Source of the DNA: Kordiimonas aquimaris
Lineage (GTDB): Bacteria > Pseudomonadota > Alphaproteobacteria > Sphingomonadales > Kordiimonadaceae
NCBI RefSeq assembly: GCF_025574485.1
Contig: NZ_JAOBPO010000007.1
Coordinates: forward strand, 1-64,000
DNA length: 64,000 bases
Direction: 5' to 3'
This document shows, one piece after another, positions 2,196-21,014 of this stretch (positions are counted from its first letter, which is position 1; each line of letters begins with the position of its first letter). A program made the translations under genes and the position numbers. Under the pieces are notes generated by a model, which worked only from the letters and a program-made list of their open reading frames with translations, was not told the DNA's origin and made no database searches.

Positions 2196-3074
2196 TCACT
2201 GCTGGTTTTGTGGCCTCAGGTCTTCGATTATCTGCGCATCGATCCAGTAGATATCAACATTTACATTGCGGCCACTTCCCGAGATCGTACGGTCAAACAT
2301 TAGGAATTTTCCGTCTGGTGTGACGCTGCCGTAAAAATCATCTTTGTCTGAATTCACACGCGGTCCCATATTGATTGCAGGTCCCCACGAACCATCTGTC
2401 TGACGATAACTGATGTAAAGATCAGATTCGCCGTAGCCTCCCTCGCGTTCGCTGTCCCATATCAGGTAACTTTCATCGGGCGCAATGAAGGGGTGTGCTG
2501 TGAATTCTCCGCTGTTGATATGCTCAGGCAGTCCCGTAGGCGCTTGTCGCTTGCCGTCCACTATTCTTGATACGCGGACTTCACTGCTTTTATAATCGTC
2601 AAACACATAGGTGCCGCGCGTTGATGCGGTCAGGCGCATAATGCCCCAATCGTCATGATCGAACATTGGACCCTTACTTTGTACCTCTGACCAACCTGAA
2701 GCAGTGCGATGTCGGTGGCCTTTTGCCAAATGCATTGTCTGACCGTCTGCGGTTATGAACGGCTCGCCGGTACGTGGCATTTCTGTAAACTTATGCCACT
2801 TATTATCATCTAGCCGAAATCCGTAAATTGTTGCGCGCCCTTCTTCATTGTCAGTGACAAAATAAAACTCTTCCATGCCCGGCGCGAACACAGCTTCCAG
2901 CTCCCAACCATCAGTTGAAATGATGCCGGGCGCGAACACTTCTGCCGTTTTACCGGGTGGAGTTTGCCCCATATAAGGACCTTCAAAAATTGGGAATTTA
3001 TCTTGGGCGCTGCTACCGCTAGTTAATGTCAGCGCAGAAAGGAATATAATTACCGAAGGAAAGATTGGTTTCAT
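2196..3074 (-). CDS. Secreted PD40 beta-propeller-repeat protein, paralogue 1
   Basis: This protein of about 292 residues belongs to a four-member family in this window. I chose the start at MKPIFPSVIIFLSALTLTSG, a signal peptide, because a GCGAGG ribosome site precedes it; a longer frame exists upstream. The mature N-terminus carries the family signature GPYMGQTPPGKT and FAPGIISTDGWE. Two PD40/WD40-like motifs follow, APDESYLIWDSEREGGYG and TPDGKFLMFDRT. The end is DIYWIDAQIIEDLRP. PD40 repeats form propeller blades like those in TolB. The substrate or partner is unknown. It is the last gene of the minus-strand run that begins upstream at the BlaI-type regulator. Confidence 0.75.
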   Translation of the reverse strand: MKPIFPSVIIFLSALTLTSGSSAQDKFPIFEGPYMGQTPPGKTAEVFAPGIISTDGWELEAVFAPGMEEFYFVTDNEEGRATIYGFRLDDNKWHKFTEMPRTGEPFITADGQTMHLAKGHRHRTASGWSEVQSKGPMFDHDDWGIMRLTASTRGTYVFDDYKSSEVRVSRIVDGKRQAPTGLPEHINSGEFTAHPFIAPDESYLIWDSEREGGYGESDLYISYRQTDGSWGPAINMGPRVNSDKDDFYGSVTPDGKFLMFDRTISGSGRNVNVDIYWIDAQIIEDLRPQNQQ

Positions 3075-3157
3075 GGCTTGCCTCGCTTGGTTTTCATTAA
3101 TTACGTGCATCTGCCTCAGGTTTAGGAAAGGCAACAGCACTGAACGTAAAAAGGTTT

Positions 3158-3790
3158 CTACTCAGGGAATGAAAATTTCGCCCAAGTTGCCTTATCATTA
3201 TCTACCGCATTTTCAGGATATAAGAACTCTACGTCATCGCTCTCTTCATGATTAATGCCGCCTACACCAATCATCATATTCCAAGTATTACCTGCAAATT
3301 TTTTACGCGATATTTGCAGTTGCCTGTGTGTTCCCAGTGCGAATTTAAGGCGTCTCCCGTTTTCGGTATTCTCAGTCCCAAAAAAAGGCACCCAGAATCC
3401 GGCATAACCTTTTAGATCCCACGTGGCAGATGGCCCCCATCCTTCATCTGTACGTACTCGCTCTCCCATTTGAGCGGAAAGATGAAATTGATGAAGGTGT
3501 CTAGTTTCAGCATGTTCCACGTATAGATTTAAGGCTGTAAAGTCTTCTGCCTTACCTTTGGCGCATAGGTAGAAATAATCTTTATCGTACATAAGATAAA
3601 TGGAAACCTGCGCTGGCAATTCAATTTTTGTTGCTACATCCCATTCATCGTTACCACAACGGCCATCTAATAGTCCTGCCTTACTGGTTGGGTTAATAGT
3701 GACGGTTTCAGAAGCGTTCACTTCAGTAGCTGCAAATGACAGGGAGGTGCTCAATAACAGCAATTTTATCATATTTTGCATGGGATTCAT
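3158..3790 (-). CDS. Secreted CBM9/DOMON-like protein
   Basis: This 210-residue protein has a signal peptide (IKLLLLSTSLSFAATEVNAS). The rest reads as a single beta-sandwich: LDGRCGNDEWDVATKIELP, then IYLMYDKDYFYLCAKG, then a tail with KFAGNTWNMMIGVGG. An 'LDG..DEW' opening followed by a Y.M.D..Y.Y.. strand is characteristic of CBM9-like and DOMON-type domains. Those bind carbohydrates or haem, but no ligand can be assigned here. It lies between PD40 paralogues 1 and 2 on the same strand, so it is probably co-expressed and co-secreted with them. Other in-frame ATG codons within the first seven residues make the exact start uncertain. Confidence 0.6.
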   Translation of the reverse strand: MNPMQNMIKLLLLSTSLSFAATEVNASETVTINPTSKAGLLDGRCGNDEWDVATKIELPAQVSIYLMYDKDYFYLCAKGKAEDFTALNLYVEHAETRHLHQFHLSAQMGERVRTDEGWGPSATWDLKGYAGFWVPFFGTENTENGRRLKFALGTHRQLQISRKKFAGNTWNMMIGVGGINHEESDDVEFLYPENAVDNDKATWAKFSFPE

Positions 3791-3828
3791 TGGGTTATTT
3801 CTAATTAAGAAGGGGTAGGGGTAAACGA

Positions 3829-4719
3829 CTATGACTTAGGTTTCAGGCTTTCAATGAGCTGCGCATCAATCCAGTATAAATCTGATTGAGCGCCTATATC
3901 ACTGTTTGCTAATGGGATCATTCGATTAAAGAACAGGTATTTTCCGTCAGGCGTGATCTGTGGGCCGCCTTCTTCAGCTTCTGTGTTTACTGTGTCTCCC
4001 ATATTAATCGCTTCACCCCACGAGCCATCTTCTTTGCGGAAGCTGATATAGAGGTCATTACTGCCAAACCCGCTCTCTCTTTCGCCGTCCCACATGATGT
4101 AACTCTCATCTGGTGCAATGAACGGGTGGGCGTTCCACTTGCCTGTATTAATGCTTTCTGGCAATGGCTTGGGGTCTTCGCGTTTACCATACACTAGCTG
4201 TGAATATCGAAGAGTGCCAACTCCGCCTGCGCCCATCTCGTCAAGAACCAAAGTGCCTTGAGTTGAAGCGGTCAGGCCCATGATGCGTATGCTTTCAAAG
4301 GCAGGGCCGAGGCTTTTCATCTCTGACCAGCCTGAAGCTGTGCGTTCTTTGTATTGAGCGCCGTAATGCAAAGTGTTGCCATCTGGTGAGTGGAATGGTT
4401 TACGCGTTCCAGTTGGCACAGATACCTTACGCCACTTATTATCCACTTTTTTAAAGATGACAGACTCTGGTTCCTTTGCGTCGCGCGTATGCCGCCACCT
4501 GCTGACATGAAGCTCGTTCATATCTGGTGAGAAGCCAATAGCGTCTCCCCATTCTTCTGTATTAACAAGACCGGGAGCAAAAGGTTTGGCGGTTAAGCCG
4601 GGCGGTGTTTGGCCGAGATAAGGACCCTTGAGCAACGGAAAATCATCTTCAGCATGACTGCTGTTACTCAGCGTAATTGCAGAAAGTAATAGGGCTACTG
4701 GGACACAAGTATTTTTCAT
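3829..4719 (-). CDS. Secreted PD40 beta-propeller-repeat protein, paralogue 2
   Basis: This 296-residue protein has a signal peptide ending near SNSSHAEDD and a strong AAGGAAAA ribosome site. The family signature GPYLGQTPPGLT and FAPGLVNTEEWG follows. PD40 motifs are SPDMNELHVSR, APDESYIMWDGERESGFG and TPDGKYLFFNR, and the end is DLYWIDAQLIESLKP. It is closest by eye to paralogue 4. The conserved tail suggests a functional interface rather than a random C-terminus. The role is unknown; a periplasmic or extracellular propeller is an inference from the signal peptide. Confidence 0.75.
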   Translation of the reverse strand: MKNTCVPVALLLSAITLSNSSHAEDDFPLLKGPYLGQTPPGLTAKPFAPGLVNTEEWGDAIGFSPDMNELHVSRWRHTRDAKEPESVIFKKVDNKWRKVSVPTGTRKPFHSPDGNTLHYGAQYKERTASGWSEMKSLGPAFESIRIMGLTASTQGTLVLDEMGAGGVGTLRYSQLVYGKREDPKPLPESINTGKWNAHPFIAPDESYIMWDGERESGFGSNDLYISFRKEDGSWGEAINMGDTVNTEAEEGGPQITPDGKYLFFNRMIPLANSDIGAQSDLYWIDAQLIESLKPKS

Positions 4720-4772
4720 AACTTTTCCTTAATGAACAAACGCAAGCAGAATGGTTATTGAAACCTGAGTCA

Positions 4773-5687
4773 TTATTGTTTGGGTTTGAGTTCTTCGATA
4801 AATTTCGCATCAACCCAGTAGATAGTCACATCTTCGTTTCCGCGTTTTGTCCGACGGTCAAAGAAGAGGAATTTTCCGTCAGGCGACACGCTTGGATTTT
4901 TCTCAGAGAAGCCAGTATTTATCTTGTCACCCAGATTGATGACAGGGCCCCATGAGCCATCGGCCTTCCGATAGCTGATGTAGAGATCAGATGAACCGTG
5001 CCCAGCGTCTCTTACGCTATCAAAGACAATATAGCTTTCATCCGGCGCAATATAGGGATGGGCATTATACCTGCCGATGCCAAACTGCGGCCCCAGTAAT
5101 TTCGGTTCTTCGTATTTGCCGTTAACCAACCGTGAATAGCGCAGGGGAATGTCTAGTGCCGGGTTGTAGGTATCAAAATAAATCGTCCCGTTAGATGAAA
5201 TTGCAGACCGCATAATGCTGATACTTGAGAAAGGTTCACCAAGGCTTTTCATCTCTGACCATCCGGTATCGGTGCGTTCTACATAAGCTTGTTTTAACAA
5301 GATGGTATTGCCGTCAGGAGAGATAGATGGTTCGCTCACTGCCTTGGCTACAACCGACTGCTGCCATTTATTATTTTTATATTCAATAACAGCCAGTCCG
5401 TAAGAAACGTCATCTCCTTTATATTCTCCAACTTTAACTACGCCGGCATATTCTTCGCCTTCTCTAACGAAGTAAAAGCTATTCATGTCCGACCCGAACA
5501 TGCCCTCAAGATCAATAGAATCTTCTTTATTCACGTTGCCGGGCGCGAAAATCTCAGGCGTTGAGCCAGGCGGCGTTTGTCCCAGATAAGGCCCTGTGAG
5601 CTCGGACAAGTCATCCCCTGCATAGCTGGCGCTACTCATCACAGATGCAGATAGGATTAGTACCGTTGATCCGAAAATAGACTTCAT
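4773..5687 (-). CDS. Secreted PD40 beta-propeller-repeat protein, paralogue 3
   Basis: This protein has 304 residues from the chosen start MKSIFGSTVLILSASVMSS, preceded by AAGGGCGAAGAC. A longer frame would overlap the previous gene by 11 bases. After a signal peptide it has GPYLGQTPPGSTPEIFAPG, then SPDGNTILLKQ, APDESYIVFDSVRDAGHG and SPDGKFLFFDRR, ending TIYWVDAKFIEELKP. It starts 10 bases after the serine-hydrolase stop, so the two are almost certainly co-transcribed. It is the most divergent of the paralogues near residues 60-110. Confidence 0.75.
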   Translation of the reverse strand: MKSIFGSTVLILSASVMSSASYAGDDLSELTGPYLGQTPPGSTPEIFAPGNVNKEDSIDLEGMFGSDMNSFYFVREGEEYAGVVKVGEYKGDDVSYGLAVIEYKNNKWQQSVVAKAVSEPSISPDGNTILLKQAYVERTDTGWSEMKSLGEPFSSISIMRSAISSNGTIYFDTYNPALDIPLRYSRLVNGKYEEPKLLGPQFGIGRYNAHPYIAPDESYIVFDSVRDAGHGSSDLYISYRKADGSWGPVINLGDKINTGFSEKNPSVSPDGKFLFFDRRTKRGNEDVTIYWVDAKFIEELKPKQ

Positions 5688-5697
5688 GTCTTCGCCC

Positions 5698-6900
5698 TTA
5701 TTCAGCAAATGCAGGTACGATGGTGTTTAAAATCTGAGGCATGATTGTTTCGTCGTCTCTGTCATGACCGGTGATCACGATGGTTAGATCAAGGTCTTTA
5801 ACCACGATGATGCGTTGTCCGCCGCCACCCCAAGCTAGTTTGACATCATAGCTTTTATCACCGGCTGTAATATTCGTTTGATACCAAAAATAACCATAGC
5901 GATACGTTTCTGGCTGCCACTCTGCAGCGGCCTTAGTAATGCCACTGGTGGCTTTGGCCAGATACTCTATTGGAATAAGCTGTTCGCCGTTCCATTTGCC
6001 TTTGTTGATAACCAAGTGACCTAACTTCAGCATGTCGCGCGATGTCATGCTCGTGCCGGCACCTGCACTTGGCAGCCCGCTCACGCCGTCCCGCCAGCTA
6101 TAATTTGTAATACCTATTTTATTGAGAAGTTCATTTTTGATGAAATTCTGTGCGGTGCCGGGCACAACGGCCTCAATGACTTGCATCACCAGATCCTGAT
6201 CCCAGCTGTATAGATAACTCTGGGATTCTGCAGTAATCGGCGCGCTATGCTCAAGCCAAGCCTGAACCAGCCCTTGACCTTTTAACGGGCCGGGGTTTTC
6301 ATTAAGCTCACTCCTTTTATCATCACTGATGCGAATACCTGAGCGCATGGTTGATGCCTTGTGAAGCGTGATTTTTTCTGCCCCATCAACAAGTCTTGTG
6401 GTGTCTAGGTCTTTTAAAAAGCTGATCAGAGGTTTGTTCAAGTCAGTCATTGCCAGATAACCGAGCTGGATAGCACGGCCTAGTGCCAAGCTGGTGTAGG
6501 ACTTAGTCGCTGAGGCTTGGAAATGAGGCAAGTTGACACGACCGCGCAGATAGTAACTTTCGAACAAGAGCTTGCCTTTATGAGTTATAAGCAAGCTGTC
6601 GTAGAGACCATATTTTTTGTCGGCAACCTCCTGAGCCAACTGGGCGATTGCAGCTTTTTCACCGCCGTCTACACCCAGTTCACCAACAACAATACCGTCT
6701 TCTCGAGCCGCTGGCGTTGTATCGATAAAGGCTTTTTCAAGATACGGTAAATCCCAGAATGAGATTGCAGCGTCGGCGGCTGTTGCCTCCGGTGCGTTAT
6801 CATTATTTTCTTGCGCGCTTACTGCGGCAAAGCTGCTGAAACTGCTCAGTATTATCGCGGCAATTAAACTCTTAAATTTCAAATTGATGGTCATGGACAT
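5698..6900 (-). CDS. Exported serine beta-lactamase-like hydrolase (class C / CubicO type)
   Basis: This 400-residue protein has a signal peptide (KSLIAAIILSSFSSFAAVSAQ). The catalytic S-x-x-K is S130-A-T-K133 in QASATKSYTS. The second motif is probably YSWD rather than the classical Y-x-N. The third is GGGGQR rather than KTG, as in many CubicO-type esterases and peptidases. The family includes class C beta-lactamases, DD-peptidases and esterases; the altered second and third motifs argue against a true beta-lactamase. An ATG two codons downstream (6894) has better ribosome-site spacing. The gene lies directly downstream of the BlaI/M56 pair, which suggests it is a regulated effector. Confidence 0.8.
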   Translation of the reverse strand: MSMTINLKFKSLIAAIILSSFSSFAAVSAQENNDNAPEATAADAAISFWDLPYLEKAFIDTTPAAREDGIVVGELGVDGGEKAAIAQLAQEVADKKYGLYDSLLITHKGKLLFESYYLRGRVNLPHFQASATKSYTSLALGRAIQLGYLAMTDLNKPLISFLKDLDTTRLVDGAEKITLHKASTMRSGIRISDDKRSELNENPGPLKGQGLVQAWLEHSAPITAESQSYLYSWDQDLVMQVIEAVVPGTAQNFIKNELLNKIGITNYSWRDGVSGLPSAGAGTSMTSRDMLKLGHLVINKGKWNGEQLIPIEYLAKATSGITKAAAEWQPETYRYGYFWYQTNITAGDKSYDVKLAWGGGGQRIIVVKDLDLTIVITGHDRDDETIMPQILNTIVPAFAE

Positions 6901-12503: not shown

Positions 12504-12578
12504 ACTTATATACTGACTATTCACATATGCGTGATATACAATGCGTTTGTAGCGGGGGCAAGTGGTGAAGGATGTAGT

Positions 12579-14540
12579 ATGACAGATGGCGTGTCTGGCG
12601 TTGAATCAAGAGCAAATTCTGAAGATGTAGCTAAAACTGGAAATGATGCATTAGATAGCTTGTTATCAGGCACAAGATGGGTGAGCGACTCTGGTTCAAA
12701 TATTACCACCATCAGTTTCAGCTTCCCCGATGAGAACAGTAATTTTAGTGAAGACCCTGATCTTGGGTATGGCACTTCTGGTAATGAACCCCACACTGGT
12801 TTGGCAGGACTGTCGGAATATGGCCAAGGTCTTTTCCTAAGCGCAATAGCTAATCTCCAGACATTTACGAACTTGGCATTTACACAAGTGCCGGATGAAG
12901 GGGACAGCGCAGGCACCATTCGGGTGGCGTTTACAGGCATCACTGATAATGATTCTGTTGCGTTTGCCTATCTGCCAGGCGCATACCAGGCCGCAGGCGA
13001 TATATGGGTTCTCTCGGAAAATCATACCGAGGATGACACAGACTTTCTACAAACCCTGACGCATGAACTTGGACATGCACTTGGGTTAAAGCACCCTCAT
13101 GAAGCCGAGGGGGGATTCCCTCAGATTGCGTCTGGTTTAGACGGCATGGATTATACTGTGATGTCGTACAATATTTCCATGCGGTACGCGAACGCGACAT
13201 TCGCTGACTTGTTCCCTCAAACATACATGTACGGCGATATTCTAACTCTTCAGCATATGTACGGCGTTGATACTGTTACAACGGCAGGGACAGATACATA
13301 CACATACGATCTCAATGAGCGTTACTATGCAACTGTTTGGGATTATGGAGGAAATGATACTATTGCTATTTCTGGAACAGGTAAGTCTGTTAAACTTGAC
13401 CTCACGCCTGGTTCCTGGAGCAATGTCGGTACAACGATTAAGTTTTTTGGTGACGGCGAAAGTTGGGATGACAAAGACTCACTGTTTATTGCCCCTGACA
13501 CTATTATTGAGAATGCAACAGCATCTGACGGTGATGACACGCTGCAAGGTAATGATGCCTCTAACAAGCTAAGAGGCAATGATGGGGCTGACAAGTTATA
13601 CGGCGCTGCTGGTGCTGATGTGCTGTTCAGCGGTAACGGTGATGATATTGCCATGGGCGGCTCGGGCAATGATTTTTTATGGGCGGGCGCAGGCGACACC
13701 GGAGATGATGTGTCAGCAGGCGGCGCTGGCGATGATGTTGTTGCGGGTGGTGCTGGTAATGATTTTCTGATTGGCGGCGGCCTTGATGACGGCAACAACA
13801 TGGATGTTGCGGCAGCGAATGAAGATTCCACAGATGATGGCAACGACACTATTTTTGGCGGTTCAGGCGATGACACCTTACTTGGCGGCGGCTGGGATGA
13901 CGGCGCAGGTAATGATGACGGAAACTATGATGACGGTGAAGCTGTTGTATCAGGCACGTCAAATGATGCGATCTGGGCTGGTGCAGGCAATGATCTGATT
14001 ATTGCCGCTGCTGGTAATGATGCGCTGGGTGGTGGCACGGGCGACGACACAATCAATGGCGGCGACGGGAATGACACAATATACGGCGGTGTTGATGGTG
14101 GTGATACTGGTGTTAATGACGTAATTGACGGCGGTAACGGCAATGATGTGATTTTCTCTGCTGCGGGTAATGATTCGGTTGTTGGCGGCGCTGGTAACGA
14201 TGAAATTTTCTCAGGCGGTGGCACCGACACTGTTGATGGTGGTTCAGGAAACGACACGCTTTGGGGCGGTGGAGGCAACGATGATTTCACTGGTGGTAGC
14301 GGTGATGATTTGTTCATTTTTGAAGCCGGACACGGTGATGACACGATCACTGATTTTGACATCGGTGATGATTCGATAAATCTTGCTGAAGTAACGGCAG
14401 CCTTTGCTGATACGGCCAGCGTTATTGCCGCAGCATCGCAAGTGAGCGGTGGTATAAGCATTGATCTAGGTGGTGGTGACAGCTTAACCCTTGAAGGTTT
14501 AAGCTTGAATGATTTGGATCAGGTAACTTTTATTTTATAA
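12579..14540 (+). CDS. Serralysin-like M10 metalloprotease with RTX repeats
   Basis: This protein has about 653 residues from MTDGVSGVES, chosen because AAGGATGTAGT precedes it; a longer frame from 12531 exists. The zinc site HELGHALGLKH (about 162-172) and the Met-turn YTVMSYN mark an M10 serralysin-type catalytic domain. From about residue 315 to 600 there are many glycine- and aspartate-rich nonapeptides (GGSGNDFLWAG, GNGDDIAMGG), which bind calcium and form a beta-roll. Such proteins leave the cell through type I secretion using a C-terminal signal. There is no N-terminal signal peptide and no type I transporter in the window, so a remote exporter is needed. The start of the broken cytochrome gene lies 75 bases upstream on the other strand. 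Confidence 0.92.
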   Translation: MTDGVSGVESRANSEDVAKTGNDALDSLLSGTRWVSDSGSNITTISFSFPDENSNFSEDPDLGYGTSGNEPHTGLAGLSEYGQGLFLSAIANLQTFTNLAFTQVPDEGDSAGTIRVAFTGITDNDSVAFAYLPGAYQAAGDIWVLSENHTEDDTDFLQTLTHELGHALGLKHPHEAEGGFPQIASGLDGMDYTVMSYNISMRYANATFADLFPQTYMYGDILTLQHMYGVDTVTTAGTDTYTYDLNERYYATVWDYGGNDTIAISGTGKSVKLDLTPGSWSNVGTTIKFFGDGESWDDKDSLFIAPDTIIENATASDGDDTLQGNDASNKLRGNDGADKLYGAAGADVLFSGNGDDIAMGGSGNDFLWAGAGDTGDDVSAGGAGDDVVAGGAGNDFLIGGGLDDGNNMDVAAANEDSTDDGNDTIFGGSGDDTLLGGGWDDGAGNDDGNYDDGEAVVSGTSNDAIWAGAGNDLIIAAAGNDALGGGTGDDTINGGDGNDTIYGGVDGGDTGVNDVIDGGNGNDVIFSAAGNDSVVGGAGNDEIFSGGGTDTVDGGSGNDTLWGGGGNDDFTGGSGDDLFIFEAGHGDDTITDFDIGDDSINLAEVTAAFADTASVIAAASQVSGGISIDLGGGDSLTLEGLSLNDLDQVTFIL

Positions 14541-14568: not shown

Positions 14569-16470
14569 CTATTTGCCCATGCGGTCCAGAATTACATCTG
14601 CAGCGTCCATAAGGCGCGCCATTCGGGTCATTAACGCTTCGTAAGGTGCACTGGTTGTTAAATCAACGCCGGCTTTTGTTAGCAAGGCATGAGGGTAGTC
14701 TGATCCACCAGCTTTTAGTAAAGCGATATAATTATCTTTCGTTACTTTGTTTCCTGCGAGCAAGCGATTAGCAAACATTGTTCCACCAACAATACTTGTG
14801 GCATTCTGATACACATAAAAATTAGAATAGAAGTGCGGAATATATGCCCATTCGATAGCATAAGAAGGGTCAATAGTCATAATACCCTGGTCGTGACCGT
14901 GATACTTTTTGAGAATCTTCAAATATATCTCGCTGAAACGCTTGCCTGACAGTTCTTCTCCTGCCTCTGCTATTTCATGGATACGTAGTTCAAACTCCGC
15001 GAACATTGTTTGCCTGAAAAAACTGGCCCTAATCCCTTCAAGAGCCTGATCTATATAATATAAATAGTCCTCATCGCTCAGGTCTTGAAATAGCATAAAT
15101 TCTTGTAATAGAACCTCGTTGCTGGCGGCTGCGAGCTCTCCAACAAACGGGTTGTAACTGTATGTTTCAAAATCATTATTTTGCCTTGAAAACAGGGCAT
15201 GAACTGCATGCCCCCATTCATGTGCAAATGTTGATACGCCATCAAAGCGTCGATTGTAATTCAATAAAATATAGGGATGTATATCGTACCCTGCATTTTG
15301 CGTGTAGGCGCCGCTTTGTTTTCCAGGTTGAGGGTAAACATGCATCCATTGCTCATCGAAGCCACTGGTAAGGTTTGCAATATAATCTATGCCATAAGGC
15401 ACTAACGCTTGCAGTGTTATGTCTTTCGCTTCTTCCAAGGTGAAGCGTTGTTCCTGATAGGTAGTGGCTGGATAAATGTCGTAATAATGTGAGTTGGTTA
15501 TTCCCAGCATTCGTTCGCGCAGTTTCAGATAGCGGTGTAGTGATGGTAAATTGTCATTAGCCGACTGAATGAGGGAACTGTATACCTCCGTTGGCAGACG
15601 CGGTCCTGACATAGCCTGAGAAAGAGCATTATCAAAACCACGAATTTTAGCTGAAGAAACATGGCTTTTCACAACCGTGCTTAATATGCGTCCAACATTG
15701 GTTTCGTATGATCTCCATGATTGCCAGAAGGCGTCAAAAATGTTCTTTCGGTCGGCTCTGTTATTGATGCCGCGGTACCGCGCATAAGTATCCGGGTTGA
15801 GCGTGATACCTTGGCCAGAATCAAGTGTGACCCAAGGCCATAAAATCGACTTACCTACTGTATTTCTGTAAGCTTGCTGGGCTTCGAGAATAGTTTTTTC
15901 TTCCTGGGCTAACAGAGCAGCAGTTTCCGGTTTGGCATTCGACGCGTATAGAAAAATATCCTTGAGGCGAAAAGCATGTTTCGAAAGCTCGGGTGTTTGC
16001 GCTATCCACCTATCAACAGTTTCTTGTCCGATGACACGTACTTCTGGTGCAACAAAAGTGGTTGCTTGCTCCAATGCCGTAAACAACTCCAATGCACTGT
16101 TTAACATGGCTCTGGAGTTGGCATCACGCATATCCTCATTGGCATTAAGGGAGGCGTATATGAAAACACGTGCCGCTTTTTCATTTATTTGGGAAATTGT
16201 ATTAAGAGCCAGAAGTATGGTGGCCGGATCGTTATTTAGTTTGCCTTCAAAGCTGGTGAGGTTTTCGATGTCTTCCTCAACTTTAGCTTTGGTTTGATGC
16301 CAATCACTTTCATTTTCAAATATATCGTTCAGATTCCAGCGAATTTGGCCTTCAATATCTTCGGCATAAAGGTGATTATCAGGCGTTAAAAAACCTACTA
16401 GAAGTAGGGCTGTGGCCATTATTAATCTGGAAAGTTGGATTCTATCCAAGGTTTGCACCGAATGCTCCAT
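14569..16470 (-). CDS. pepF: Exported oligoendopeptidase F-like M3 metallopeptidase
   Basis: This 633-residue protein shows PepF landmarks: WNLNDIFENESDW at the N-terminus, then the zinc site FAHEWGHAVHALFS (HExxH), then AIEWAYIPHFYSNFYVYQNA near the C-terminus. M3B oligoendopeptidases cleave short peptides and are usually cytoplasmic. This one has a hydrophobic N-terminal segment (LIMATALLLVGFL) ending near LYAEDI, which reads as a signal peptide and suggests periplasmic peptide turnover. It converges with the serralysin gene, 28 bases apart. There is no obvious terminator between them. Confidence 0.88.
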   Translation of the reverse strand: MEHSVQTLDRIQLSRLIMATALLLVGFLTPDNHLYAEDIEGQIRWNLNDIFENESDWHQTKAKVEEDIENLTSFEGKLNNDPATILLALNTISQINEKAARVFIYASLNANEDMRDANSRAMLNSALELFTALEQATTFVAPEVRVIGQETVDRWIAQTPELSKHAFRLKDIFLYASNAKPETAALLAQEEKTILEAQQAYRNTVGKSILWPWVTLDSGQGITLNPDTYARYRGINNRADRKNIFDAFWQSWRSYETNVGRILSTVVKSHVSSAKIRGFDNALSQAMSGPRLPTEVYSSLIQSANDNLPSLHRYLKLRERMLGITNSHYYDIYPATTYQEQRFTLEEAKDITLQALVPYGIDYIANLTSGFDEQWMHVYPQPGKQSGAYTQNAGYDIHPYILLNYNRRFDGVSTFAHEWGHAVHALFSRQNNDFETYSYNPFVGELAAASNEVLLQEFMLFQDLSDEDYLYYIDQALEGIRASFFRQTMFAEFELRIHEIAEAGEELSGKRFSEIYLKILKKYHGHDQGIMTIDPSYAIEWAYIPHFYSNFYVYQNATSIVGGTMFANRLLAGNKVTKDNYIALLKAGGSDYPHALLTKAGVDLTTSAPYEALMTRMARLMDAADVILDRMGK

Positions 16471-16787: not shown

Positions 16788-17453
16788 ATGCGCATGACTT
16801 TAAGAAAAATTCTGGGAGTCATGGTGACTCTGGGAACTTTAAGTTCATTTTTGGCTAGTGCTGCCGTTGCAGGAAATTTGATAGTTTCTGTCTCCAATAA
16901 AAAAGGTGAAAGTTTAGAAAATGCGGTTGTCATGTTAACGCCGCAGTTTACTCTTTCAACACCTGTCGTTGCTGCAGATAGTCCTGAAATGCGTCAGGAA
17001 GGTGCTTTGTTTTCACCGTTTGTTTTACCGGTTAAAGTAGGTACTAAAGTTTCTTTCCCCAATTTTGATGAGTTTCGTCACCACGTCTATTCGTTTTCCA
17101 AAACAAAACGTTTTGAGTTGCGCCTATACGGCAAAGACGAAACGAATTTTATCACTTTTGAAAAACCGGGTATTGTAGCGTTAGGCTGTAATATACATGA
17201 TAATATGTTGTCATATATTTATGTGACCGAGGCACCAATCATGAAGAAAACAGATGCAAATGGTACTGCAACGCTTACTGACCTGGAGCCTGGTCAATAT
17301 AAAATGGAAATTTGGCATCCTGGCGTTAAACGCAAAGGTATGCCTACGCCCAAAATCATTACGATCGCTGATGGAAACCGTTCAGAGAGTGGTCAACTGG
17401 ATCTTCGACGTGTTTGGGGTATTCAAACGCAACCAGCTGAAGGCCAGTACTAA
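16788..17453 (+). CDS. Secreted cupredoxin (plastocyanin/methylamine-utilisation-like)
   Basis: This 221-residue protein has a signal peptide ending near FLASAAVAGN. The copper-site ligands are visible: H98 or H99 in FRHHVYSFS, then C134, H137 and M140 in ALGCNIHDNM, the C-x2-H-x2-M arrangement of type 1 copper proteins. A carboxypeptidase-regulatory-like beta segment follows (DANGTATLTDLEPGQYKMEI). Family members are often named methylamine utilisation proteins, but no amine dehydrogenase is nearby. The stop lies two bases before the next gene, a membrane c-di-GMP phosphodiesterase. A functional link, such as copper or redox state feeding the sensor, is an inference. Confidence 0.82.
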   Translation: MRMTLRKILGVMVTLGTLSSFLASAAVAGNLIVSVSNKKGESLENAVVMLTPQFTLSTPVVAADSPEMRQEGALFSPFVLPVKVGTKVSFPNFDEFRHHVYSFSKTKRFELRLYGKDETNFITFEKPGIVALGCNIHDNMLSYIYVTEAPIMKKTDANGTATLTDLEPGQYKMEIWHPGVKRKGMPTPKIITIADGNRSESGQLDLRRVWGIQTQPAEGQY

Positions 17454-17455
17454 CT

Positions 17456-19792
17456 ATGGCTATGCGCTTTCAATCAAAACTTACACTCGTTTACCTGGCA
17501 TTGTTTTTGGTTGTGCAGGGCGTAGTTATTTTATCGATAAACCGGTACGTAACAGAAAATGTTAGAGAACAAATTGCTGGGCAACTTGACGCGTCTTCAA
17601 GAACTATTGCGCGACTGATTAGAGATCGAAACGATATTTTGGGTACGCGTGCTCAAGACCTTTCCAAAGACTTTGGCTTTAGGCAAGCTGTTGCAACCTT
17701 GGATGACGCCACAATTAAAAGTGCGCTTGCTAACCTCATAGACCGATCTGATCTTGATATTGCATTTGTCGTTGACCTGGATGGTCAATTAATCGGTTCT
17801 GTTGGTGATATGGCCGTAACGGATAATGCAACGTTACTGTCAGACGAGCTGATTGAAGCAGCAGAAGAACAAGGTGTGGCTGCACGATTTATCGAGTCAA
17901 ACGGTGAATTATTTGAAGTCGTGATTGCACCAGTCTTTGCACCTGTGACAATAGGGTGGGTTGGTCTTGGTTTCCAGCTTGACCGGGAAATTGCAATTGA
18001 ATTTAAAGAATTATCACCCGTGGCTATTGATGTTGCTTTTATTTTTGGTGACAAAGGCCAACCTGAATTGTCTGCAGCAACCACCAATGTTCAAGACCTT
18101 GCCGAGTTTTTAGCTGAAAACCCTCAGGTAGGGTTGGAGACTGAATATGAAAGCGTGTTTGTTGACCAAGACTATATGTTTAGGCGCGTACCGCTTGTTA
18201 GTGAGTTTTCTCAAGGGCGGCAAATGGATGCACTTGTTTATTACTCTGTTGATGTAGGCCTTCAGGCTTTCCAATCGCTTATAGTTACACTGCTGAGTAT
18301 CTTGGTTGTTGGCTTGCTGCTTCTTATTTTGGGAAGTGTTGCGGTTTCGAGAGGTGTAACAAGGCCACTGCGATACATAGCAAATGCAGCTGATCGCATC
18401 TCGCGCGGTGAATATATTAAAGTGGATGCTCCATCGGAAGATATAGAGTTTGCACGCCTCAGTAATAGCTTTAATCATATGATTGAAGGGATTCGCGATC
18501 GCGAAGCTAGCATTAGGTACCATGCCAACCATGATATCGATACAGGGCTACCGAACCGTAACTGGTTTGAAGAGCAAATATCACCATCAATTGATACTAA
18601 GAAGCCGTTTTCAATAGCAATTTTGGAATTGCAAGGCATAGCTGACATGCGGACAGTGTTGACGCATGATCACATTAATGAACTGGTGCGCAGTATTGCA
18701 GAACGGCTTGAGACAGTGAATGTTCAGTATCTGGCACGCTTATCAACCGAGACATTTGTTTTTGCTCAATTCGGTGAAGATGATGATGATATTAGTGCTG
18801 CCATGATAATTAACGGATTTATTGACCCCTTTAGTGCTGGCACAGTAATGGTTGATGTGCGAGCATTCATGGGGTTAACAAAGTTTCCAGCTGACGGCGA
18901 TAACCTCACAACGTTACTGCGGCGGGCTAACGCTGCACTTGATACCAGCCGGACATCTGCCAAATCGTATGCTTGGTATGATCGTGAACGAGATACAGCT
19001 AAACAAGATCATTTGTCGATGATGAGTGATCTTCGCGATGGTATCAAAAACGAGGAAGTTAAATTTGCTTATCAGCCTAAGCTGGACCTCTCAACAGGTA
19101 AAATAGCTTCCGCCGAAGCGCTTGTTCGCTGGATTAGTCCAACGCGCGGTTTTGTTGCGCCAGATGATTTCATTCCTTTGGCCGAAAAAACAGGCGATGT
19201 GCGTTACCTGACTGATTGGGCTTTAAAAGAAGCTATATCACAGATAGCCAAGTGGCGGGGTGATGGTATAGATATTATGGTCGCGGTCAATCTTTCAACA
19301 AATGACTTGATGAACACGAATTTGCCCGGTGCTGTACTTACGTTGTTAACAGAATATTCAGTGCCACCATCATCTCTTAAGTTGGAAGTCACGGAAAGTG
19401 CTGTCATGAATGATATGTCACGTGCTCTTGATGTATTAAACATGTTGAGCTCTATGGGCGTAGTATTGTCAATCGATGATTACGGTACGGGATATAGCTC
19501 TTTGAGTTATATCAAGGAGTTACCTGTACGTGAAATTAAAATCGATAAATCCTTTATACTGAAACTGGCTGAGGACGACGAAGATAAGATTCTTGTGCGT
19601 TCGACCATTGAACTAGCGCACAATCTAGGTATGGAAGTGACAGCTGAAGGTGTGGAAGACGAGCAATCGGTTGATTTATTGCGCGAATATGGATGTGACA
19701 CTTTGCAAGGGTATCATATTTGTCGTCCGGTGCCTGTCGAAGAATTCGAGGCATTTTTAAAGAGCCATAAAGAAAACTCACAAAACATTTAA
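17456..19792 (+). CDS. Membrane c-di-GMP phosphodiesterase: periplasmic sensor, HAMP, degenerate GGDEF, EAL
   Basis: This 778-residue protein has a transmembrane segment near 9-29, then a periplasmic CACHE-like domain of about 240 residues. A second transmembrane segment (about 275-300) leads into a HAMP (RGVTRPLRYIANAADRISRG). The GGDEF-type domain has STETF at 430-434 in place of GGDEF, so it should not make c-di-GMP. The EAL domain is intact: EALVRW at 554-559 and DDYGTGYSSLSYIKELP from 674, with KIDKSFI. The predicted activity is hydrolysis of c-di-GMP to pGpG, lowering its level and favouring motility over attachment. It is translationally close to the cupredoxin gene upstream. Confidence 0.9.
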   Translation: MAMRFQSKLTLVYLALFLVVQGVVILSINRYVTENVREQIAGQLDASSRTIARLIRDRNDILGTRAQDLSKDFGFRQAVATLDDATIKSALANLIDRSDLDIAFVVDLDGQLIGSVGDMAVTDNATLLSDELIEAAEEQGVAARFIESNGELFEVVIAPVFAPVTIGWVGLGFQLDREIAIEFKELSPVAIDVAFIFGDKGQPELSAATTNVQDLAEFLAENPQVGLETEYESVFVDQDYMFRRVPLVSEFSQGRQMDALVYYSVDVGLQAFQSLIVTLLSILVVGLLLLILGSVAVSRGVTRPLRYIANAADRISRGEYIKVDAPSEDIEFARLSNSFNHMIEGIRDREASIRYHANHDIDTGLPNRNWFEEQISPSIDTKKPFSIAILELQGIADMRTVLTHDHINELVRSIAERLETVNVQYLARLSTETFVFAQFGEDDDDISAAMIINGFIDPFSAGTVMVDVRAFMGLTKFPADGDNLTTLLRRANAALDTSRTSAKSYAWYDRERDTAKQDHLSMMSDLRDGIKNEEVKFAYQPKLDLSTGKIASAEALVRWISPTRGFVAPDDFIPLAEKTGDVRYLTDWALKEAISQIAKWRGDGIDIMVAVNLSTNDLMNTNLPGAVLTLLTEYSVPPSSLKLEVTESAVMNDMSRALDVLNMLSSMGVVLSIDDYGTGYSSLSYIKELPVREIKIDKSFILKLAEDDEDKILVRSTIELAHNLGMEVTAEGVEDEQSVDLLREYGCDTLQGYHICRPVPVEEFEAFLKSHKENSQNI

Positions 19793-19826: not shown

Positions 19827-21014
19827 TTAAACTGTTTCCTTGAGAAACGCACTATAGCGCAATAATCCTGCTTCAAGTTCTGCGATAAGGTCATCAGTAT
19901 CTTCGAGACCGATGTGCAATCGAAGCAGTGGTCCTTCAGCGCTCCATGGTCTAGCTGAGCGGTCCTCTGTGGGGTCACTAGGTAGAATTAAACTTTCATA
20001 ACCGCCCCAACTAAAGCCCATCTTAAACAAATGCATGTCATCGACCATTCTGGCAGTGTCAGCATAGTCTCCGCCGTTAAGAATGATCGAGAATAAACCA
20101 CTGGAGCCAGCAAAATCGCGTTGCCAAATTTCATGACCTGGGCATTCCGGAAATGCAGGGTGTAATACCTGCGCAACTTCGGGTCGGTCTTTTAACCATG
20201 CTGCAACCTTCAGGGCATTTTCTTCATGTGCTTTAAGTCGCACCCCTAATGTGCGCAGGCCACGAGAGGTCAGGAATGCATCATCGGGTGATATAGTTTG
20301 CCCCATTTGATATGCAGTTCGGCTCAGTTTTCTCCATGCGCGCTTATTCGCTGTGGCGCTGCCAACCATTACATCGGAGTGACCACTAATATATTTGGTA
20401 CACGCCTCGACTGACACATCTGCACCAAAATCAAGTGGCTTAAATAATAGCGGTGTTGCCCATGTATTGTCCGTGATTACATAGGCGCCGCATTTTTTAG
20501 CAGCGCTCGCAATTGCAGGGATATCCTGTATCTCAAATGTGTTGGACCCAGGGCTTTCAGTTAGAATAACACTGGTGTTGTCGCGTAGTAGTTTTTGAAT
20601 GTCAGCACCGATCAATGGGTCGTAATATTCGGTTTCAACATTCATTGTTTTTAGTATGCCGTTAGCGAAGGAGCGTGTTGGCGCATAAGCACTATCAGTC
20701 ATCAAAATATGATCACCGGCCTTCACAAAAGATAAAATCGCAGTTGTTACAGCTGCAATGCCACTAGGAAACAGCATAGTTCCTTCGCCGCCTTCAAGTT
20801 CAGTAAGCGCCTCCTGAAGCGACCACTGCGTCGGTGTACCTTTGCGACCATAAAACAAATGCCGCGCAGTTGGGTCTGCAACGCGCTCACGGTATTCGGC
20901 ATATGTATCAAATAAACATGTTGAAGCGCGGTAAACAGGCGGATTAACGATACCATGTGTCCATTCCTTACGCCGACCAGCTGTTACGAGTTTGGTATCT
21001 TCATTATCGGACAT
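19827..21014 (-). CDS. metC: Cystathionine beta-lyase
   Basis: This 395-residue PLP enzyme of the Cys/Met metabolism family should convert cystathionine to homocysteine, ammonia and pyruvate in methionine synthesis. Landmarks are GIVNPPVYRASTCLF, FYGRKGTPTQ, LFPSGIAAVT, ESPGSNTFEIQD and TDNTWATPLLFKPL, and the PLP lysine K207 in EACTKYISGHSDVMVG. The sequence SWGGYESL is typical of the lyase branch. It starts 14 bases after the sulfurtransferase stop, so they form an operon devoted to sulfur amino acids. Confidence 0.93.
   Translation of the reverse strand: MSDNEDTKLVTAGRRKEWTHGIVNPPVYRASTCLFDTYAEYRERVADPTARHLFYGRKGTPTQWSLQEALTELEGGEGTMLFPSGIAAVTTAILSFVKAGDHILMTDSAYAPTRSFANGILKTMNVETEYYDPLIGADIQKLLRDNTSVILTESPGSNTFEIQDIPAIASAAKKCGAYVITDNTWATPLLFKPLDFGADVSVEACTKYISGHSDVMVGSATANKRAWRKLSRTAYQMGQTISPDDAFLTSRGLRTLGVRLKAHEENALKVAAWLKDRPEVAQVLHPAFPECPGHEIWQRDFAGSSGLFSIILNGGDYADTARMVDDMHLFKMGFSWGGYESLILPSDPTEDRSARPWSAEGPLLRLHIGLEDTDDLIAELEAGLLRYSAFLKETV

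Follow-up and report, generated by a model that had tools for sequence, protein, structure and literature searches.

What would an exported copper protein do beside a membrane enzyme of cyclic diguanosine monophosphate (c-di-GMP) metabolism? The question is raised by two adjoining genes, here gene A and gene B, at positions 16,788 to 19,792 of a stretch of Kordiimonas aquimaris DNA of 64,000 nucleotides (contig NZ_JAOBPO010000007.1, positions 1 to 64,000), hereafter the window. For most GGDEF-EAL receptors it is not known what they respond to in the periplasm; at this locus the likely input protein of the receptor is encoded next door and is recognisable. The cupredoxin–receptor pair is real and conserved across phyla, more than expected by chance, and sequence comparisons together with structural models indicate that the cupredoxin is probably a dedicated periplasmic partner of the receptor, setting its output by its own state.

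A predicted cupredoxin and its neighbouring receptor

The two genes are as follows.

16788..17453, plus strand: gene A, an open reading frame for a predicted exported protein of 221 residues with a cupredoxin domain and a C-terminal transthyretin-like beta domain
17456..19792, plus strand: gene B, an open reading frame for a predicted dCache_3-HAMP-GGDEF-EAL receptor of 778 residues

Gene A ends with a TAA stop codon at 17451-17453 and, after a gap of two bases (17454-17455), gene B opens with an ATG at 17456, exactly the spacing given in the initial annotation; a second in-frame ATG lies at 17462. The parts of gene A are listed below.

16788..16871, plus strand: signal peptide, residues 1-28, predicted by eye with cleavage after AVA (residue 28); the AlphaFold2 (AF2) model has a hydrophobic helix at residues 2-22
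16872..17228, plus strand: cupredoxin domain, approximately residues 29-147, from the AF2 model and fold search, boundary approximate
17079..17081, plus strand: predicted copper ligand H98, invariant in 81 of 81 alignment rows
17187..17207, plus strand: ligand loop C134-N-I-H137-D-N-M140, ligands invariant in both alignments
17229..17408, plus strand: C-terminal beta domain with conserved W176-H177-P178, from AF2 strands; below-cut-off Pfam CarboxypepD_reg match at residues 154-183

By its ligand set and modelled Greek-key beta fold, gene A is a type 1 cupredoxin, for which copper binding is predicted. The secreted type 1 copper-site protein proposed in the initial annotation is thereby upheld, the predicted leader, the cupredoxin fold model and the ligands H98, C134, H137 and M140 all being present. 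The model (mean predicted local distance difference test score, pLDDT, of 92.1) retrieves amicyanin, pseudoazurin, plastocyanin and purple cupredoxin in Foldseek searches (E down to 6e-8), and the C-x2-H-x2-M spacing of the ligand loop is that of amicyanin. Used as a single sequence, gene A gives insignificant values against a nitrite-reductase cupredoxin domain (0.11) and a Nitrosopumilus blue copper protein (0.17), for which the family profile gives 3.2e-5 and 0.0025, respectively. Pfam names no cupredoxin domain in gene A, returning only below-cut-off CarboxypepD_reg-type matches in its C-terminal part, and NCBIfam has no match to it. Loss of the copper ligands in most homologues, a condition under which the initial reading would fall, does not hold: all four are invariant, both in the 11 rows of a first alignment built without motif selection and in the 81 rows of a larger one, whose scan pattern included C134 and H137 but not H98 or M140. 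W176 is likewise kept in all 81 rows and H177 in 78.

The receptor encoded by gene B comprises four predicted domains.

17567..18196, plus strand: periplasmic dCache_3 sensor, residues 38-247 (Pfam 2.7e-16, AF2 model and fold matches; no Cys or His)
18344..18499, plus strand: HAMP domain, residues 297-348 (Pfam)
18524..18952, plus strand: degenerate GGDEF domain, residues 357-499 (Pfam), with the motif STETF at 18743-18757
19028..19729, plus strand: EAL phosphodiesterase domain, residues 525-758 (Pfam), all nine catalytic positions intact in the alignment

Gene B is, from its sequence and model, a membrane-flanked double Cache receptor with a HAMP domain after the sensor. The sensor model (pLDDT 93.8) matches double-Cache domains, among them those of LuxQ in its complex with LuxP and of amino-acid chemoreceptors, with template modelling (TM) scores of about 0.4-0.6; by sequence, the gene B sensor has no relative among solved chains. 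A dense run of conserved sensor residues spans positions 72-97 (D72, G74, F75, A78, D83, T86, S89, N93 and R97), and an AP pair at residues 162-163 is conserved as well. A search for metal ligands found no sensor column with at least 40% Cys, His or Met, and the window's own sensor contains neither Cys nor His. Copper binding by the sensor alone is thus unlikely, and any copper chemistry would sit in the cupredoxin.

Pfam and the alignment agree with the initial description of gene B as a CACHE-like sensor followed by HAMP, a degenerate GGDEF (STETF) and an intact EAL. Among 66 aligned GGDEF-EAL receptors (65 relatives and the window), all nine EAL catalytic positions are kept in 63 of the 64 rows that cover the domain, the exception (L095) having one change. 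The cyclase motif [GSA]G[DE]EF is present in 19 of the 66 rows and is not matched by the STETF of the window. In this branch, then, phosphodiesterase activity is to be expected throughout, unlike cyclase activity.

Conservation of the pair

The initial annotation had mentioned the pairing in other proteobacteria and proposed a survey of its frequency; the pair proved neither rare nor unlinked in relatives. In the class to which the window belongs, gene A has matches at E 1e-3 in 34 of 289 genomes, its own genome among them. Leaving out the window's genome, the eight strongest matches (L009-L016, E 3.8e-16 or better) all have a gene B relative as the next gene, which at L016, where the next open reading frame is short, is called by its sensor match alone; at 21 weaker loci (L017-L037) none was found within flanks of 1.5 kb. 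The window's genome has five EAL genes besides gene B, and gene A matches only itself and one other gene there. This second cupredoxin-like gene (L008, C11:559466-559783) aligns at all four ligands and lacks the C-terminal domain; its 1.5 kb flanks contain no match to EAL or sensor, and the EAL gene on its contig is about 515 kb away.

A wider scan, with one genome per species, returned at least 589 relatives, of which the best 80 were analysed as named loci, their neighbouring genes being assigned by homology. The relatives come from Alpha-, Beta- and Gammaproteobacteria, Verrucomicrobiota, Rokuibacteriota, Methylomirabilota, Nitrospirota and deltaproteobacterial lineages. Species with the unit include Shewanella frigidimarina and Pseudomonas chlororaphis. 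A receptor gene stands in the cupredoxin cluster at 76 of the 80 loci: 65 partners are GGDEF-EAL proteins (60 directly downstream, four upstream with an outer-membrane-protein (OMP)-like gene between, one convergent), nine are class III nucleotide cyclases (seven downstream, two upstream) and two are histidine kinases (one on each side). These counts combine a script, which scored 65 loci as downstream, with sorting of the other 15 by hand from coordinates; the latter include a receptor split over two frames (L043), overlapping open reading frames (L093, L116), the order EAL, OMP-like gene, cupredoxin (L062, L090, L095, L117), the convergent L068 and three upstream receptors (L052, L055, L060). 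L044 and L046 lie at contig ends, with partial next genes that match the sensor, and L065 has no receptor. L077, a Phenylobacterium locus, has only a 77-residue sensor fragment beside the cupredoxin on the other strand (5605-5835, minus); the long receptor of L068, also labelled Phenylobacterium, is convergent, so the unit may be decaying in that genus. A natural cupredoxin–receptor fusion was sought, and no open reading frame of the 80 loci matches both.

Co-occurrence was surveyed in 398 Pseudomonadota genomes, with cupredoxins taken at E 1e-30 or better. The 58 cupredoxin genes fall in 53 genomes and the 58 sensor matches in 50; both are found in 49 genomes, the cupredoxin only in four, the sensor only in one and neither in 344 (Fisher p 8e-57, uncorrected for descent). 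The sensor gene lies downstream on the same strand of 46 of the 58 cupredoxins, 45 times within 150 bases and once at 1.1 kb with a gene between. Among the four genomes scored as cupredoxin only, G424 has its cupredoxin next to a divergent receptor, G331 has a kinase that matches the sensor weakly, and in G500 the cupredoxin is at a contig end. The sensitivity of the survey for divergent receptors is thus limited, those of G424 and G331 having been missed.

Exchange of the output around a constant pair

The strongest argument that the cupredoxin belongs to the sensor comes from those receptors that are not GGDEF-EAL proteins. Pfam finds dCache_3, HAMP and Guanylate_cyc domains at L060, L073, L084, L089, L101 and L107 (dCache_3 below cut-off in the last), the cyclases of L055, L086 and L102 being called by BLAST only; L052 combines a Pfam dCache_3 with a hybrid histidine kinase, and L064 is a HAMP-HisKA-HATPase protein without a Pfam sensor call. 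A sensor profile for which only GGDEF-EAL partners were used matches all 11 of these proteins over nearly its full length, with E-values of 6e-43 to 7e-81 for a set of 13 proteins. When the three output labels are placed on a maximum-likelihood tree of 76 cupredoxins, they need four changes, the least possible being two, and the well-supported branches alone force two changes for each output label. These comparisons indicate that cupredoxin and sensor form the constant unit, around which the output has been exchanged. Because the two stay constant as the output changes, the cupredoxin would belong to the sensor rather than to c-di-GMP, which is not the constant part, since 19 of 66 receptors keep [GSA]G[DE]EF and some have no c-di-GMP domain. 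The initial suggestion that the unit lowers c-di-GMP is plausible for gene B itself, with its intact EAL and degenerate GGDEF.

Three further receptors beside cupredoxins were matched by the sensor profile in small sets. In G424, a relative of the same sensor is part of a dCache_3-HAMP-Ser/Thr kinase (L193, minus strand, 2535-5258; E 2.3e-13), which is an unusual architecture for a receptor. Hybrid histidine kinases in which Pfam finds no dCache_3 stand at L190 (G304; 1e-15) and L191 (a weak 1e-6). At L190 a di-haem cytochrome c peroxidase/MauG-type gene (CCP_MauG; minus strand, 5687-6754) lies between cupredoxin and kinase. The kinds of output found with the cupredoxin–sensor pair are accordingly c-di-GMP phosphodiesterase/cyclase, class III nucleotide cyclase, histidine kinase (hybrids included) and Ser/Thr kinase.

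Kimura-type distances over 63 pairs show a correlation of 0.725 between cupredoxin and sensor, compared with 0.585 between sensor and EAL of the same chain and 0.569 between cupredoxin and EAL. Once EAL is controlled for, cupredoxin and sensor still correlate at 0.588 (partial correlation), a value reached in none of 500 permutations, and among the 55 pairs of non-EAL loci the cupredoxin–sensor correlation is 0.66. This co-divergence is supportive only, because shared ancestry remains in the distances. Together with conserved adjacency, co-occurrence and the exchange of outputs around a constant pair, it supports a joint function of the two linked genes.

Genomic surroundings and a larger module

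Both flanking genes face away from the orientation of the pair, an M3 peptidase (14569-16470, minus strand) on the gene A side and a cystathionine beta-lyase (19827-21014, minus strand) on the gene B side, which marks A and B as a two-gene unit. A divergent M3 peptidase adjoins the pair in five relatives too (L039-L043, 35-57% identity), and the position of the pair thus appears syntenic in a Kordiimonadales-like group. Promoter-like sites (11, against 8.5 in shuffles) and terminator-like sites (4, against 2.9) are at chance level. Further off in the window, 12531-14540 encodes a metallopeptidase-like protein with many RTX calcium-binding repeats (Pfam Peptidase_M10, HemolysinCabind).

In many relatives the cluster is larger. 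DUF3034 and a truncated hemoglobin accompany the pair at 38 of the 80 named loci and DUF3034 alone at two more; a different, OMP-like gene is present at ten (with only a below-cut-off Pfam OMP_b-brl match, in one of those tested), and 30 loci, close Kordiimonadaceae relatives included, have none of the three in the stretch examined. Across the 398 genomes DUF3034 occurs in 38, of which 37 have the cupredoxin, within 6 kb of it in 31, and the globin lies at most 1.5 kb from DUF3034 in all 38; globins were counted at E below 1e-35, so as to leave out ordinary truncated hemoglobins with weaker matches (at E 1e-8, matches occur in 113 of the 398 genomes). Most of 18 aligned globins have a leader by eye, Sec-type or with a lipobox, and one His, which we take to be the haem ligand, is kept in all 18. 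Among solved structures their profile is closest to HbN of Mycobacterium tuberculosis. This linkage suggests, as a lead only, that the cupredoxin lies downstream of some gas or redox chemistry. DUF3034 has no match in the window's genome. That genome does encode an exported-type truncated hemoglobin (L121, C21:292502-292903, leader by eye), unlinked to the pair, near which an open reading frame resembles glutathione peroxidase by eye; no globin of exported type was found in the congener G567.

Proposed mechanism and alternatives

The pair is most likely a partner–receptor unit. The gene A protein would be exported and take up copper at its type 1 site, then dock on the dCache_3 sensor. The condition of the cupredoxin, be it with or without copper, oxidised or reduced, or after reaction with a gas, would set the output through HAMP. 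In the window this output would be the EAL phosphodiesterase, which the cupredoxin might either activate or inhibit. The initial suggestion that copper or redox state is sensed in this way is a natural one, and gains from the finding of an invariant metal site in the cupredoxin and of none in the receptor. We would guess, though weakly, at a redox or gas signal in preference to copper level as such, since an exported HbN-like hemoglobin accompanies the pair in many relatives.

Several observations weigh against a dedicated partnership. Among 733 locus pairs with different outputs the cupredoxin–sensor correlation falls to 0.35. Eight of the 12 unpaired cupredoxins are in genomes with a receptor elsewhere, two of them as second copies, and G303 has a cupredoxin-globin-DUF3034 cluster with no receptor in 12 kb. 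Conversely, nine of the 58 sensor matches lack an adjoining cupredoxin (five with a cupredoxin elsewhere in the genome, three second sensors, and one in G278, which has no cupredoxin match). The p-values overstate the association, because the profiles derive from members of pairs and the genomes are not independent in descent. Finally, boxes of neither of two regulator types exceed chance in the 81 upstream regions: FNR/ANR boxes with at most two mismatches occur in seven (shuffle mean 8.7) and CueR-like boxes also in seven (shuffle mean 6.5).

A partnership of this kind would give the widespread family named 'methylamine utilization protein' a function, likewise the dedicated dCache_3 subfamily, and probably also DUF3034 and the exported hemoglobin. 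It would provide a direct route from copper, redox or gas chemistry in the envelope to biofilm and other decisions. The cupredoxin should carry a coloured metal centre, so that occupancy, redox state and binding could be followed by simple spectroscopy. More tentatively, and falling just short of an even chance in our judgement, the family may represent an envelope signalling class in which a blue-copper 'ligand' serves dedicated dCache receptors with at least four kinds of output, with a hemoglobin/DUF3034 gas or redox input in many lineages.

A relay in which the exported group 1 hemoglobin and DUF3034 feed a nitric oxide (NO), oxygen or electron signal to the cupredoxin, and thence to the receptor, would refine the partnership by naming its signal, the window's lineage keeping only cupredoxin and receptor linked. 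NO chemistry is known for HbN and for purple cupredoxin. The relay draws on the DUF3034-cupredoxin-globin linkage across the 398 genomes, on the leaders seen by eye and the resemblance of the globin to HbN, and on the closest solved cupredoxins by profile, which are nitrite-reductase-type domains and the Nitrosopumilus purple cupredoxin. It is possible but somewhat unlikely, given that of the 53 cupredoxin genomes 16 have no DUF3034 and 14 no strong globin match, that the window's exported-type globin is unlinked (C21:292502) and the congener has none, and that FNR-type boxes are not above chance.

That the cupredoxin simply reports periplasmic copper by its holo and apo forms is unlikely. Invariant type 1 ligands and a sensor without conserved metal ligands would fit, as would the copper binding in vitro reported for the CHASE4 domain of P. 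aeruginosa PA14_37690 (PMC13277305), yet CueR-like boxes are at chance in the 81 upstream regions and no copper-resistance gene appears among the few neighbours profiled or annotated, a partial survey. We regard as decidedly unlikely a third possibility, that the cupredoxin carries electrons for some periplasmic enzyme and that the receptor regulates the same physiology without contact. The gene A fold is close to that of amicyanin, an electron carrier, and at L190 the di-haem peroxidase lies between cupredoxin and kinase; however, no constant redox enzyme was found in the neighbourhood, where it is the receptor that recurs, with any of the outputs, and cupredoxin–sensor co-divergence exceeds that of sensor and EAL within one chain.

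RefSeq names several gene A relatives 'methylamine utilization protein', among them cupredoxins whose receptor unit is carried on large plasmids of Caballeronia and Comamonas (L118, L119, L120). A role in methylamine utilization has this annotation in its favour and is barely credible: the three annotated plasmid loci name no mau gene beyond the family's own name, which is apparently a misnomer there, and PF02975 (methylamine dehydrogenase light chain) is unmatched in the window's genome, a weak point since control genomes are silent too.

Comparison with known systems

Among the papers listed in searches of the open-licence literature none has the cupredoxin–receptor pair as its subject, and it may be in print elsewhere; the papers found there on cupredoxin with c-di-GMP, like those on DUF3034, have titles unrelated to the pair. 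The proposed working principle has several parallels. PrrC–PrrB offers a precedent in which a Sco-type copper protein acts on a redox kinase. In LuxP–LuxQ the output of the receptor is a histidine kinase. Soluble LuxP, which differs from gene A in binding autoinducer 2 (AI-2), docks on the periplasmic sensor of LuxQ, whose fold matches the gene B sensor model (PDB 2hj9, 1zhh).

In the NspS–MbaA system of Vibrio cholerae, a GGDEF-EAL enzyme of the membrane is under the control of a soluble protein in the periplasm, the arrangement proposed here for genes A and B. Our pair also shares a feature of systems of this type, the gene of the soluble partner staying linked to that of the receptor. The NspS–MbaA system differs in that NspS binds polyamines and MbaA has both activities; neither copper nor an exchange of outputs, as in the cupredoxin–sensor family, is described in the accessible parts of the source (PMC8967002). 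DbfQ–DbfS, also of V. cholerae, is alike in that the gene of a small periplasmic protein adjoins that of its receptor: DbfQ binds the sensor domain and controls biofilm. DbfS differs in being a histidine kinase, and the abstract mentions no copper (PMC12714742).

PA14_37690 and PA2072 resemble gene B in carrying a periplasmic sensor on a GGDEF-EAL protein (PMC13277305, PMC13380032). The CHASE4 domain of PA14_37690 is itself reported to bind copper in vitro, whereas the gene B sensor has no conserved ligands, and the word 'cupredoxin' is absent from the main text of PMC13277305. PdeB of Shewanella and proteins of P. fluorescens PF08, the latter with GAF, REC and PAS domains, came into question as relatives already characterised and were set aside on partial texts. 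On the cupredoxin side, amicyanin and the Nitrosopumilus purple cupredoxin have in common with gene A the cupredoxin fold and the type 1 ligand loop, whereas the additional C-terminal beta domain and the receptor encoded next door are features of gene A.

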